A stretch of DNA of 64,000 nt from the NCBI RefSeq assembly GCF_014200755.1, contig NZ_JACHCM010000003.1:186001-250000 (forward strand), in the 5' to 3' direction. The stretch is from Rhodanobacter sp. ANJX3. GTDB lineage: Bacteria; Pseudomonadota; Gammaproteobacteria; Xanthomonadales; Rhodanobacteraceae. Position numbers and translations under genes: made by a program. This document shows positions 3,847-31,906 of the stretch, one piece after another. The notes below the pieces were generated by a model. The model did not search any database. It was not told where the DNA came from and saw only the letters and a list, made by a program, of their open reading frames with translations. Every line of letters starts with the position of its first letter. Position 1 is the first letter of the stretch.

Positions 3847-5067
3847 TCATCCCTTCACGCAGAGCACCTGACGCAAGGTGTGAACCACCTCGACCAGATC
3901 GGTCTGTGCCGCCATCACGGCGTCGATCGACTTGTACGCCGCCGGCGACTCGTCGATCACCGCCGCGTCCTTGCGGCATTCGACATGCGCCGTCGCTTCA
4001 CGATGCTGAGCCAGCGTGATCTGCTGACGCGCCGCGGTACGACTCATCACACGACCCGCACCGTGGCTGCAGCTGTGGAAGCTGTCGGCATTGCCCTTGC
4101 CGCGCACGATGTAGCTGCACGTCCCCATGCTGCCCGGAATGATGCCCAGCTCGCCCTCGCGCGCACTGACCGCTCCCTTGCGGGTCACCAGCAGTGCGTC
4201 GCCGCCGTGCGTCTCCTTCTGCACGTAGTTGTGATGGCAGTTCACCGCCATCTTGGCGAGCTGGAATGCGGGCAGGCGGTGACGCATTTCCGCCAGCACC
4301 CGCGACATCATCGCCTCACGATTGGCGCGGGCGTAATCCTGCGCCCAGGACACCGCTTCGACGTAGTCATCGAACAGCGCCTCGCCTTCCATGAAGAACG
4401 CCAGATCCTTGTCCGGCAGATGGAAACCCAGCACGCGATGCGCCAGCTGCTCGCGCGCCCTCTCGATGAAGTAGCTGCCGATGAGGTTGCCGGTGCCGCG
4501 CGAACCCGAGTGCAGCATCACCCACACGGCGTCGGACTCATCCAGACACACCTCGATGAAGTGATTGCCGCCGCCGAGCGTGCCGATCTGCTTGTCGACC
4601 TTATCGGTGCGGATCTTGCGGTGCTTGGCCTTGATCAGCTCCAGCCTGGCAACCAGCCCGGACTGCGCCAGCCGCGTTTCGATGCTGTCGGGCATGCGCC
4701 CGTGATCGCCGCCGCGGCCGTTGCCGACCGGCACACCACGCTCGATGCTCGAACGCAGTTGCGCCAGACTGTCGGGCAGGTCCTTCGCCGTCAGCGTGGT
4801 CCGCACCGCGGCCATACCGCAGCCGATATCGACACCGACAGCGGCGGGAATGATGGCGCCTTCGGTCGGCACAACGGAACCTACCGTCGCGCCCTTGCCC
4901 AAGTGCACGTCCGGCATCACCGCAACCCACGGGCCGACGAACGGCAGCGCGGCGATGTTGCGCAGCTGCTGCCTGGCGGAATCCTCCAGCGGCACGCCGT
5001 GCACCCAGCCCTTGATCGGCGTGGTGCTGCCTTCGGCGTGCAGCAGTTCATAGTTTTGCTTCACCAT
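3847..5067 (-). CDS. rtcB: RNA-splicing ligase RtcB
   Basis: RtcB joins a 2',3'-cyclic phosphate or 3'-phosphate RNA end to a 5'-OH end, using GTP and Mn2+, and repairs broken tRNA and rRNA. The 406-residue length matches E. coli RtcB (408). Visible hallmarks are GVDIGCGM with Mn-ligand Cys83, GGGNHF with His169, LHSGSRG with His186, NCHHN near 276-280, and SCSHGAGR with the guanylylated His335. I chose the ATG at 5067 because GAGGAAG lies just upstream and the protein then starts like its homologues. Another in-frame ATG with its own Shine-Dalgarno lies 15 bases upstream. It is the distal gene of a slipin-rtcB operon. No rtcA or rtcR is present in the window. Confidence 0.95.
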   Translation of the reverse strand: MVKQNYELLHAEGSTTPIKGWVHGVPLEDSARQQLRNIAALPFVGPWVAVMPDVHLGKGATVGSVVPTEGAIIPAAVGVDIGCGMAAVRTTLTAKDLPDSLAQLRSSIERGVPVGNGRGGDHGRMPDSIETRLAQSGLVARLELIKAKHRKIRTDKVDKQIGTLGGGNHFIEVCLDESDAVWVMLHSGSRGTGNLIGSYFIERAREQLAHRVLGFHLPDKDLAFFMEGEALFDDYVEAVSWAQDYARANREAMMSRVLAEMRHRLPAFQLAKMAVNCHHNYVQKETHGGDALLVTRKGAVSAREGELGIIPGSMGTCSYIVRGKGNADSFHSCSHGAGRVMSRTAARQQITLAQHREATAHVECRKDAAVIDESPAAYKSIDAVMAAQTDLVEVVHTLRQVLCVKG

Positions 5068-5155: not shown

Positions 5156-6277
5156 TTACTTCAGACTGACCAGCTGGTTCAGCACGCCATCCAGGCCGCC
5201 GAACACGGTCAGCTTGTCGATCTTCTCGGTGACCTTTTCCAGCGCCTCCAGCTCCTTGAGCCGCATGAGGGTCGGGCTCTCCTCGATCAGACGCGCGGTG
5301 TTGAGCAGCGAACGGGTGGCATTCGACTCCTCGCGACGACGGATGACGTTGGCCTGGGCCGCCTTCTCCGCCTGCACGACGCTGTTGAGGATGGTCTTCA
5401 TCTCGCCTGGCAGGATCACGTCCTTTACGCCGACACCGAGCACCTCCAGGCCCAGCTCGCTGACGCGGCCACGCACGTAGGCAAAGATGTCCGCATCCAG
5501 CGAAGCCTTGTCGCCGAGCAGTTCGTCCAGCGTTTTGTCCGAGACGGCCTTGCGCAAACCGTACTGCAGCTCGCGATACAGGTAGTCGCCGTACTTGGCC
5601 ACCTTGGTCCGCGCCGCGACCGGGTCGATCACGCGCAGGCTGGCGGCCAGGTTCACCCGCAGGCTGACCTTGTCGCGCGTCAACAGCTCCTGACCCGACA
5701 CCTCCAGCGACTGCACGCGCAGCTCGATCACCTCGGCCGCCACGTTCTTCTGGAAATTCCAGAAGGCGTAGGCACCGGGCGCCAGCGTACGCAGCAGCTT
5801 GCTGTCGACGAACAGCAGGCCCGCCGACTCCACCGGCACATCCACCGTCACCGCCACCTTGGCCAGCAGGCTGAGCTGACGCAAACGACTGGCGACGCGC
5901 GCATCGACCTCCAGCGAATCGACTAGCGATACCGCCTGTATCTCGACCGGCACCAGACCCTTCCAATACAGCTTGCGGGTACCGGGTGCGAGCACATCCT
6001 CCAGCTTGCCGTTCTTCAGCACCAGGCCGACTTGCAAGGTACCGATGTCGGCCACCACGAAGCATTCGGCCAGCGGGCCGTCCATTTGCGCCATCAGCAC
6101 ATCGGCATCCGCACCGACGTACTCGGGCTTGGCAAAGTTGTGGACGGTCACGGCCACGCGGTTGCGCGGATCGAAGATCCGGTACACGCCCGCAGGCAGT
6201 ACGCGCTCGAAACGACGGTTGCGATACAGCAAACCGCGCTCGCCGTCGCCGATCACGATTTGCTTGAGCCAGAACAT
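5156..6277 (-). CDS. Slipin family (SPFH/band 7) protein
   Basis: The 373-residue protein belongs to the SPFH/band 7 group. Recognisable features are the band 7 core around residues 140-310, including AKVAVTVDVPVESAG and LASLRVIDPVAARTKV-like segments, and a coiled-coil rich end starting near VVQAEKAAQANVIRRREESNATRSLL. Unlike typical slipins it has no obvious N-terminal transmembrane helix and instead carries about 120 extra residues before the core. The start at 6277 follows AAGGAG at good spacing. It sits 88 bases upstream of rtcB. SPFH genes are a known partner of RtcB in bacterial RNA-repair operons, so a role in that response is inferred, not shown. Confidence 0.88.
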   Translation of the reverse strand: MFWLKQIVIGDGERGLLYRNRRFERVLPAGVYRIFDPRNRVAVTVHNFAKPEYVGADADVLMAQMDGPLAECFVVADIGTLQVGLVLKNGKLEDVLAPGTRKLYWKGLVPVEIQAVSLVDSLEVDARVASRLRQLSLLAKVAVTVDVPVESAGLLFVDSKLLRTLAPGAYAFWNFQKNVAAEVIELRVQSLEVSGQELLTRDKVSLRVNLAASLRVIDPVAARTKVAKYGDYLYRELQYGLRKAVSDKTLDELLGDKASLDADIFAYVRGRVSELGLEVLGVGVKDVILPGEMKTILNSVVQAEKAAQANVIRRREESNATRSLLNTARLIEESPTLMRLKELEALEKVTEKIDKLTVFGGLDGVLNQLVSLK

Positions 6278-6593
6278 GATGATTCTCCTTTTGGTGATTC
6301 TAGTTTCGATCCGATAGATAATCCGTAAGCGCCGCCGGATCGTTACGGCGCATACGTCGATTTGATAATAGTTAGATCCACGCAGGGATCTCCCTTTCGG
6401 GATAATCGATTCGCTATTAATAACGAATTGATAAAAAATAAAGTGGAAACGCCTCCCAACGTCAACGGAGCGAAACCTGCGTGCATTCACGGGGAATCGG
6501 TTATCTCGCCGGAAGCCTGCGATATTCCTCAGAGGCATCCGTCGCGATACCCGATCGCCCGGTTTCAGGACGTGGGTCCGGCTCCACCTCCGC

Positions 6594-6642
6594 TGCCCTG
6601 CAACGCATATCGCCCTCCATGGCGTGTATGCCCTGCAACGCA
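6594..6642. repeat. 14-bp direct repeat in the slipin leader
   Basis: TGCCCTGCAACGCA occurs exactly at 6594-6607 and again at 6629-6642, 35 bases apart. It lies between the tRNA-like elements and the slipin gene, inside the presumed 5' leader. It might be a protein or RNA interaction site, or simply a small duplication. Confidence 0.6.
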
Positions 6643-6696
6643 CGAGGCGTTTCCTGGTCGGAACTTTCGTTCCTGGTGTCATGACGTGACATGTCA

Positions 6697-6771
6697 TGGT
6701 GTTGGAGCGGGAGTCGAACCCGCGACAGTCGGTTTCTTAGGACCGATGCTCTACCCATCTGAGCTATCCAG
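6697..6771 (-). ncRNA. tRNA-like element A upstream of slipin-rtcB
   Basis: Read on the minus strand this folds as a cloverleaf: D-stem GCTC/GAGC with a GG-containing loop, anticodon stem TCGGT/ACCGA, 5-nt variable region, T-stem GCGGG/CCCGC with loop TTCGACT, and an encoded 3' CCA. Two features are abnormal. The anticodon loop has eight nucleotides, CCTAAGAA (a nominal AAG after T33). The acceptor stem retains only four pairs (TGGA/TCCA) because its 5' strand is abutted by the CCA of element B. It is probably not a functional decoding tRNA. A degenerate tRNA gene is the alternative reading. Confidence 0.65.
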
Positions 6772-6844
6772 TGGTTGACGTGCCGGAGTCGAACCGGCGA
6801 CCAGCAACCGCGAGGCTGCCGCTCTACCTCTGAGCTAACGTCAG
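6772..6844 (-). ncRNA. tRNA-like element B, contiguous with element A
   Basis: On the minus strand: acceptor TGACGT/ACGTCA (six perfect pairs) then A and CCA, D-stem GCTC/GAGC with a 7-nt loop, T-stem GCCGG/CCGGC with loop TTCGACT. The anticodon arm can form as GGCAG/TTGCT with an 8-nt loop CCTCGCGG (nominal anticodon CGC), or as a longer GCAGCC/GGTTGC stem with a 4-nt loop. Its CCA runs directly into element A without a spacer. The 6-bp acceptor and 8-nt loop make a normal tRNA unlikely. Both elements lie on the same strand and upstream of slipin-rtcB. Confidence 0.65.
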
Positions 6845-6893
6845 CTTTCGGAACACCGCCTGACAGGGTCTGGCATACGCTATCGGCATGGCC

Positions 6894-6980
6894 GAGCGCA
6901 CCGGATGGGGGTTGAACCCATACCGCGGGAACCTGCTGTTTCGGCGCTCCGTATTGCCGGCCGTCGCCAACCGGCAATAC
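6894..6980 (-). ncRNA. Structured element C: hairpin plus T-arm mimic
   Basis: On the minus strand a perfect 10-bp hairpin (6971-6980 with 6951-6960) is followed by a 5-8 bp acceptor-like stem (GAGCG at 6945-6949 region with CGCTC at 6894-6898) enclosing about 20 unpaired bases and a perfect T-arm: ATGGG, loop TTCAACC, CCCAT (6905-6921). D-arm and anticodon arm are absent. It resembles the tRNA-like modules of bacterial Y RNAs in general design, but no Ro60/Rsr gene is present in the window. The fold was drawn by eye. Confidence 0.45.
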
Positions 6981-7184
6981 ATGTGGACAAACACGCCGCT
7001 AATCCGGCTGCACTCGTCCTATTCGGTGAATCCGATTCCCGCACAGCCCGCGCCGAAGCATCGGGACGCAGCGCACAGGCGCCCGTCGCAGCTGCGCCCC
7101 TGCCTCAGCTGGGAACAGCCGGATGCTTCAGGGCGAAACGTATTCCATAAACGTTGGTCGATTCACGACTTTCCTTGCGAACGC

Positions 7185-19421: not shown

Positions 19422-19498
19422 TGGTCGGGGCGGCGGGATTCGAACCCACGACCCTCTGCCCCCCAGGCAGATGCGCTACCAGGCTGCGCTACGCCCCG
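19422..19498 (-). tRNA. tRNA-Pro (anticodon GGG)
   Basis: The minus strand gives a complete cloverleaf: acceptor CGGGGCG paired with CGCCCCG, D-arm GCGC..GCGC, anticodon stem TCTGC/GCAGA with loop CTGGGGG (anticodon GGG, reading CCC and CCU), T-arm with loop TTCGAAT, discriminator A and encoded CCA. It is 70 bases after the MerR-like gene, at the end of the pheST-ihfA block, and has its own terminator. Confidence 0.97.
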
Positions 19499-31669: not shown

Positions 31670-31906
31670 TCGGGAGTTTTGCTGACCTGATGCGGCCGGT
31701 TTCACCGGTGCGTACAGCGCAAAGCGTCCCGGGATTGTAACCGTCAAGCGGTCCAATACCCAACCAAACGCCACACACGTATCGGCACCGCCTTCGGGGT
31801 GCTGCGCTCGATCCCATCATTTAATGGGACGTTCGCGGTCGAAGTCGGGGGTACGTGGAGGTCCCAACCCCCAGACCTTATAAAGGTCCATGCAAGGAGT
31901 TTCACC

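Follow-up and report, generated by a model that had tools for sequence, protein, structure and literature searches.

Two tRNA-like elements lying head to tail upstream of a slipin gene are, as judged by comparative folding, the central portion of a structured RNA of approximately 690 nt, with covarying domains on both sides. On balance, we consider it probable that these elements are tRNA-mimicking domains in a conserved RNA that is genetically partnered with slipins of this type. The aligned loci establish a predicted fold with compensatory changes, the retention of the RNA in genomes devoid of a detectable RtcB, and the preservation of the D- and T-arms across relatives while the anticodon triplet varies.

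The elements are located on the minus strand of the window, which is the whole 64,000-nt stretch of DNA that was analysed. ARAGORN placed them at 6773-6844 and 6698-6773, and the Rfam tRNA model (RF00005) scored 48.0 bits at 6774-6844 and 42.7 bits at 6703-6770 for a cut-off of 29. Thus, the two head-to-tail cloverleaves of the preliminary description, for which it had proposed a check by Infernal, were detected by both programs. With one base at position 26, the upstream element (6774..6844) has the anticodon stem GCAGC/GTTGC (6819-6815 / 6808-6804) closing the 6-nt loop CTCGCG (6814-6809). The anticodon arm of the downstream element (6703..6770), at 6746-6729, reads TCGGT[CCTAAGAA]ACCGA and consists of a perfect 5-bp stem (6746-6742 / 6733-6729) and an 8-nt loop (6741-6734), the latter being preferred because TCGGT and ACCGA pair perfectly. 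ARAGORN assigned a two-letter anticodon to each element. Loops of 8 nt had been claimed for both; this holds for the downstream element, but the upstream loop is better read as 6 nt.

Both units could be parsed in 24 loci (22 from the window's family and 2 from Pseudoxanthomonas, window included), which allowed comparison with a decoding tRNA. The cloverleaf is present in the window, both scores exceeding the Rfam cut-off. A 7-nt loop with a conserved anticodon was not found: the loops of the window are 6 and 8 nt long, and loops varied in the 24 loci. Nor was a 7-bp acceptor stem with a CCA end, since the downstream unit of the window has four acceptor pairs and CCA is unconserved. The four-pair acceptor had been correctly described, and exactly four contiguous pairs were present in 13 of the 24 loci, the window among them. 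The CCA reported as encoded can be read by letter in both elements of the window, but it is not conserved (17/24 upstream and 6/24 downstream elements). Elsewhere, the window harbors an ordinary tRNA-Pro gene (GGG) at 19422-19498 on the minus strand and a t44 RNA (61.5 bits) at 31754-31868 on the plus strand.

Conservation of the pair was assessed in 51 parsed loci. At least one unit was present in 48 of these, and the 26 loci with two units in register formed alignment A2; this selection implies that the pair counts describe intact pairs. RNAalifold returned the tandem cloverleaf unaided from the 26 aligned pairs. In A2, 98.2% of the cells were paired and both-side changes were detected in 25 of 38 base pairs. 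Double-changed cells numbered 119, a count reached in none of 500 shuffles (24.3 ± 4.2), and pairing fell to 35–46% when the partners were slid. When the 1 kb ahead of slipin was searched for T-arms under strict criteria, 58 of 63 loci had one or more and 44 had two or more, whereas 140,800 nt of sequence from the slipin genes, counting both strands, contained none. The five loci missed were L038, L098, L099, L123, and L124, and the RNA of L124 sits further upstream. One unit was too degenerate to be parsed in 6 of 30 loci, and three consecutive tRNA-like units, not two, precede slipin in L127 (2669-2883; genome G386). The preliminary description had named the lack of conservation in relatives and the lack of compensatory changes as outcomes that would speak against it; conservation and compensatory changes were both found. 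Taken together, the tandem elements are conserved and covarying, and they appear to be non-decoding.

The fold of the entire leader was predicted by RNAalifold from 28 loci (26 from the family and 2 from Pseudoxanthomonas), after columns with more than half gaps had been dropped. The predicted RNA spans 6445..7136 on the minus strand, the 5' end being at the high coordinate; the limits 7136 and 6445 are the ends of predicted helices and not of mapped transcripts. The fold energy of columns 80 to 760 was −434, versus −214 ± 7 in 20 column shuffles, a gap that overstates significance since column shuffling destroys neighbour correlations. From 5' to 3', the 5'-most domain (7048..7136) contains a 10-bp helix (7131-7122 / 7062-7053) that was paired in 94% of the cells, with double changes in 7 of 10 pairs, and in 31–51% when slid by 1 to 3 columns. 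It is followed by a hairpin with an 11-bp stem and a GCGA loop (6953..6978; 98% paired, double changes in 6 of 11 pairs) and by a domain (6849..6951) closed by a 10-bp helix (6951-6942 / 6858-6849; 92% paired, double changes in 8 of 10 pairs). Beyond the tRNA-like units are the hairpins CATGAC...GTCATG (6680..6698; 97% paired, double changes in 4 of 6 pairs) and GGAAC-GAAA-GTTCC (6660..6673; 96% paired, double changes in 3 of 5 pairs). The 3' domain (6445..6654) has an 11-bp long-range closing helix, GGAAACGCCTC / GAGGCGTTTCC (6654-6644 with 6455-6445), which was paired in 99% of the cells with double changes in 5 of 11 pairs. For the 5'- and 3'-most domains, the folding covered only Pseudoxanthomonas and the family of the window. 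The RNA has its 3' limit approximately 167 nt ahead of the slipin start codon, and searches with Rfam 15 at gathering thresholds matched no family except tRNA over the 690 nt.

The domain at 6849..6951 holds a conserved core of 59 positions (6929-6871, minus strand; GGTGCGC ... GCGTATGCC). This motif was first spotted by eye, then by pattern, and the core alignment (A1) retained 40 of 49 motif hits, with the exclusion of a false, intragenic hit (L054), duplicates of other genomes (L028-L032), and L079, L080, and L106. Double changes were detected in 11 of 16 pairs of the core (0/500 shuffles as high). The corresponding covariance model, R1, scored 67.2 bits in the window. Eight helices outside the tRNA-like units were paired in 92–100% of the cells in register, and seven of these in 62% or less when slid. 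The core helix GTGCGC/GCGTAT was paired in 83% when slid and showed no double change in the 28-leader set; double changes were present in 3 of its 6 pairs in a wider set of 39.

The gene downstream of the RNA encodes a slipin, an SPFH/Band 7 protein of 373 aa (5156..6277, minus strand; Pfam Band_7, 90.3 bits), whose start codon (6277) is located approximately 425 nt past the end of the downstream element. It is followed by a gene for a 406-aa RtcB RNA ligase (3847..5067, minus strand; Pfam RtcB, 412.3 bits). The assignment of the elements to an RNA-repair locus is borne out by slipin and rtcB here and by rtcR and rlaP in other clades. Stomatins are the nearest solved sequences of the slipin. 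Vault-protein-like repeats at its N-terminus were considered and rejected, as a structure profile search gave stomatin, QmcA, HflK/HflC, and flotillin, and no vault protein.

The search for slipin in 233 genomes of the family was bimodal: 29 genomes matched at 8.9e-159 or better, and the remainder gave either distant SPFH proteins, with matches no better than 4e-18, or, in 8 genomes, no match at all. Strong R1 matches (at least 58 bits) were obtained in exactly the 29 genomes carrying slipin and in none of the 204 slipin-less genomes, where the best score was 31.8 bits. The training set of R1 included 27 of the 29 genomes, G053 and G226 being outside it. The RNA thus adjoins a Band-7 gene in a repair locus, Band_7 and RtcB being identified by Pfam and the core being present in 29 of 29 cases. 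In a class sample of 369 genomes, R1 matched 11 (E value of 0.001), four of which were not in training (G340, G479, G486, and G280); 10 matches were upstream of slipin and on its strand, and the one in G280 was at a contig edge. Slipin was present in 21 of the 369 genomes, and only 10 of these had an R1 match under the strict filters. The association crosses phyla, as the core motif and one strict T-arm are present upstream of slipin-rtcB-rlaP in Subdoligranulum variabile, a Clostridium (L104). In Burkholderia stagnalis (L106, 2533-4125), slipin has an internal duplication (530 aa versus approximately 377). At the level of sequence, these comparisons establish that the RNA follows slipin, in a one-to-one manner within the family. 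From this linkage we infer that RNA and slipin are in contact; a leader acting in cis would likewise be linked to the gene downstream of it.

Such a leader would mimic tRNA and be bound by slipin, RtcB, or a tRNA enzyme, which would thereby repress its own mRNA until drawn off by damaged tRNAs, the operator of E. coli thrS being a model for autorepression of this type. This explanation, which we regard as rather unlikely, fits the position of the RNA upstream of slipin and on the same strand in nearly all loci examined. It accounts less readily for the RNA of the window ending well ahead of the slipin start codon, and for the loci in which RNA, rtcB, and slipin are dissociated. In the family, rtcB comes after slipin in 24 of 29 loci; of the other five, L072 ends at a contig edge and L073-L076 have no rtcB within the fetched stretch. 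Among 22 hand-chosen genomes searched for the RtcB domain (PF01139), no match was found in G201 (99% complete), G225 (100%), G226 (78%), and G090 (86%), all of which have the RNA and slipin. RtcB is encoded elsewhere in the genome in G244. Within the genus, RtcB tracks slipin, the six slipin-less genomes examined being also devoid of RtcB. The order is rtcB-RNA-slipin in five loci (L039, L081, L122, L092, and L125), with the tRNA-like part between the two genes; in G340, a draft of approximately 430 contigs, an opposite-strand PhyH gene is interposed between RNA and slipin. The case against a cis-acting leader rests on these rtcB-upstream loci, RtcB-less genomes, and single draft. The same observations disfavor the purpose put forward in the preliminary description, namely to couple the expression of slipin-rtcB to damage of tRNA. 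The RNA is kept with slipin without detectable RtcB (G201 and G225), has rtcB on one side and slipin on the other in five loci, and is followed by an opposite-strand gene in the draft G340.

Two repair loci seem to carry spare tRNAs. ARAGORN detected 13 tRNA-type genes in L122 (940-4317; G490), flanking slipin on both sides and after rtcB, and five before slipin in L124 (4709-5904; G340).

Control by RtcR and sigma-54 was also considered. Among 40 hand-chosen genomes, RtcR was above the cut-off in six and absent from the window's own genome; in G161 and G244, it is distant from slipin by coordinates. The rtcR gene adjoins the locus in Burkholderia, Photobacterium, Citrobacter, G386, and G307. 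Four Burkholderia loci (L100, L102, L105, and L106) have a sigma-54-like site with 11 of 12 matches (at most 1/200 shuffles as high), 73–74 nt upstream of the core motif. This position indicates that the RNA starts the operon transcript there, which favors a cis-acting leader. Scores of 11/12 were also obtained, without shuffle control, for E. coli and Citrobacter, and L104 scored 10/12 (2/200 shuffles) without an rtcR match. In L094 and L103, where rtcR is a direct neighbor, no site exceeded chance. No locus stood out in the family and Pseudoxanthomonas (best 9/12, 20–23/200 shuffles), and the best score in the window was 8/12, reached by 79 of 200 shuffles. An RtcR/sigma-54-controlled operon was therefore rejected for the window, RtcR being absent from the genome and the sigma-54 score being at chance; both features were present in the four Burkholderia loci.

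In closely related loci, the anticodon loops mostly diverge more than the rest of the units. Upstream loops in the 24 loci were of 7 nt (12 loci), 6 nt (5), 4 nt (5), 5 nt (1), and 3 nt (1). Downstream loops were of 7 nt (22), 8 nt (the window), and 5 nt (1), so that the 8-nt loop, stressed in the preliminary description, is unconserved and confined to the window among these loci; outside the family, L090 likewise has an 8-nt loop. The 22 downstream 7-nt loops have T33 in 18, A37 in 20, and A38 in 18, and contain ten triplets, GTT and CAT being the commonest (7 each). Between loci L048 and L049, differences affect 4 of 14 positions in the loops versus 1 of 129 elsewhere. More generally, loops differ more than the remainder in 15 of 16 listed close pairs, which are not independent, the exception being L051-L052 (0/11 loop versus 6/129 other differences). 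In ordinary tRNA genes of the genus (six genes compared in 17–19 loci), the loop sequence is constant for each gene, apart from a single Leu variant.

Faster variation of the loops than of the remainder, near-constant loops in ordinary tRNA genes, and the T33 and A37 kept despite ten triplets would be expected if the RNA were a bait for anticodon nucleases, the variable loops being cleavage sites that spare the real tRNAs, or the cut RNA being a signal. We nevertheless judge this explanation improbable. Among the 24 upstream elements, seven have an anticodon loop of only 3 to 5 nt, an observation that speaks against a simple nuclease bait, and the upstream loop is a GAAA tetraloop in L051, L052, and L070. 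By eye, L100 and L102 of Burkholderia have a downstream loop of 3–5 nt and an upstream unit with no clear anticodon arm. In addition, Salmonella YrlA was not cut by an anticodon nuclease according to passages of one article (PMC7790460).

The short acceptor and the anticodon-less loops common to relatives also bear on the alternative that ordinary or decaying tRNA genes stand in the operon by chance. The latter could draw on the tRNA arrays that surround or precede slipin in L122 and L124 and on the upstream unit of L075 (3037-3109) in G225, a genome with no detectable RtcB, which is a near-perfect tRNA-Asp-like gene (76.3 bits) with a GCCA end. However, compensatory changes occur in both units, and the sole other match of the stretch in its own genome is a tRNA-Arg gene, with 77% identity over 56 nt. 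We therefore consider ordinary or decaying tRNA genes very improbable; in most relatives, covariation and tetraloops contradict this alternative, the decayed form of which had been named beforehand in the preliminary description.

Returning to an RNA that is the partner of slipin, the two may act together, as Ro60/Rsr and Y RNA may do in other RNA-repair operons. The RNA would be transcribed as a functional molecule and would bind slipin, which would form an oligomer. The elbows of the RNA (D-arm and T-arm) could then dock tRNA-handling enzymes, for example RtcB, RlaP, or nucleases; alternatively, the RNA might compete with damaged tRNAs for these enzymes. This scaffold or competitor role is proposed by analogy with Rsr and Y RNA of Salmonella, as presented in parts of one article (PMC7790460). 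More tentatively, and with less than even confidence, we suggest that slipins and a large dedicated RNA displaying tRNA elbows may constitute a ribonucleoprotein of its own kind, which would not need RtcB and would extend from Gammaproteobacteria and Burkholderia to a Clostridium. If so, slipins of RNA-repair operons would own a dedicated tandem tRNA-mimic RNA that persists in RtcB-less lineages, and the role of SPFH proteins in RNA repair would become testable.

The tRNA mimic appears reduced in E. coli and Citrobacter (L098 and L099), where only a T-arm-like remnant, missed by the strict search, was seen by eye. In these loci, slipin-rlaP lies between a DUF3811 region and lysC. The queried leader-slipin-rlaP stretch was held at 80% or more in 1617 of 5426 complete E. 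coli genomes (approximately 30%). The natural series of full tRNA, tetraloop tRNA, and T-arm remnant poses the question of which part of tRNA is mimicked.

This kind of RNA is probably already known. The 2016 abstract of Burroughs and Aravind reportedly describes, in RNA-repair systems, SPFH/Band-7 modules that have 'a novel tRNA-like molecule' for their RNA; the window has in common with these the SPFH protein, the RtcB-type repair locus, and the tRNA-like RNA. A search of the open literature (titles, abstract starts, and passages) gave no article describing the RNA of the window, nor any description of the tandem units, the larger RNA, or the independence from RtcB. Canonical tRNA (RF00005) shares the cloverleaf and the D-arm and T-arm sequences, whereas in the RNA considered here the anticodon is unconserved or absent, CCA is unconserved, and the downstream acceptor is short. 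GOLLD and ROOL are giant structured RNAs, large and ornate. The RNA of the window resembles them in size and ornateness, but matches no Rfam family except tRNA.

Closer in genetic context is YrlA, which acts with Rsr/Ro60. According to sections of one article, the rsr-yrlBA-rtcBA operon of Salmonella carries a tRNA-mimicking Y RNA, and it is suggested that Rsr and Y RNA take part in tRNA decay or inhibit the nuclease competitively (PMC7790460). YrlA (RF02553) is similarly a tRNA-mimicking RNA in an rtc operon; in contrast, the partner in the window is an SPFH protein, and the tRNA units are whole and in the normal order. A Pfam scan of five genes of the window gave no Rsr/Ro60 gene. The YrlA model scored 27.9 bits in the window for a cut-off of 69, the match covering the first unit's T-arm and the second unit's D-arm. 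At E values up to 3, it matched 7 of 9 chosen leader loci (23.4 to 37.3 bits, the best in L064; no match in L056 and L060) and one of four ordinary tRNA clusters (L003, 27.9 bits). These matches were not counted as evidence of homology to YrlA, which may nonetheless exist, all scores being far below 69 and an ordinary cluster equalling the window. In Anabaena, excerpts of a study of the TrcR regulon report that rtcB, slipin, and a 26-gene tRNA operon are co-repressed and induced by translational stress (PMC10272220). That regulon differs in comprising separate loci in a cyanobacterium, and those excerpts mention no tRNA mimic. The rtc locus of P. aeruginosa includes an SPFH gene, as stated in part of a further article (PMC13086221).
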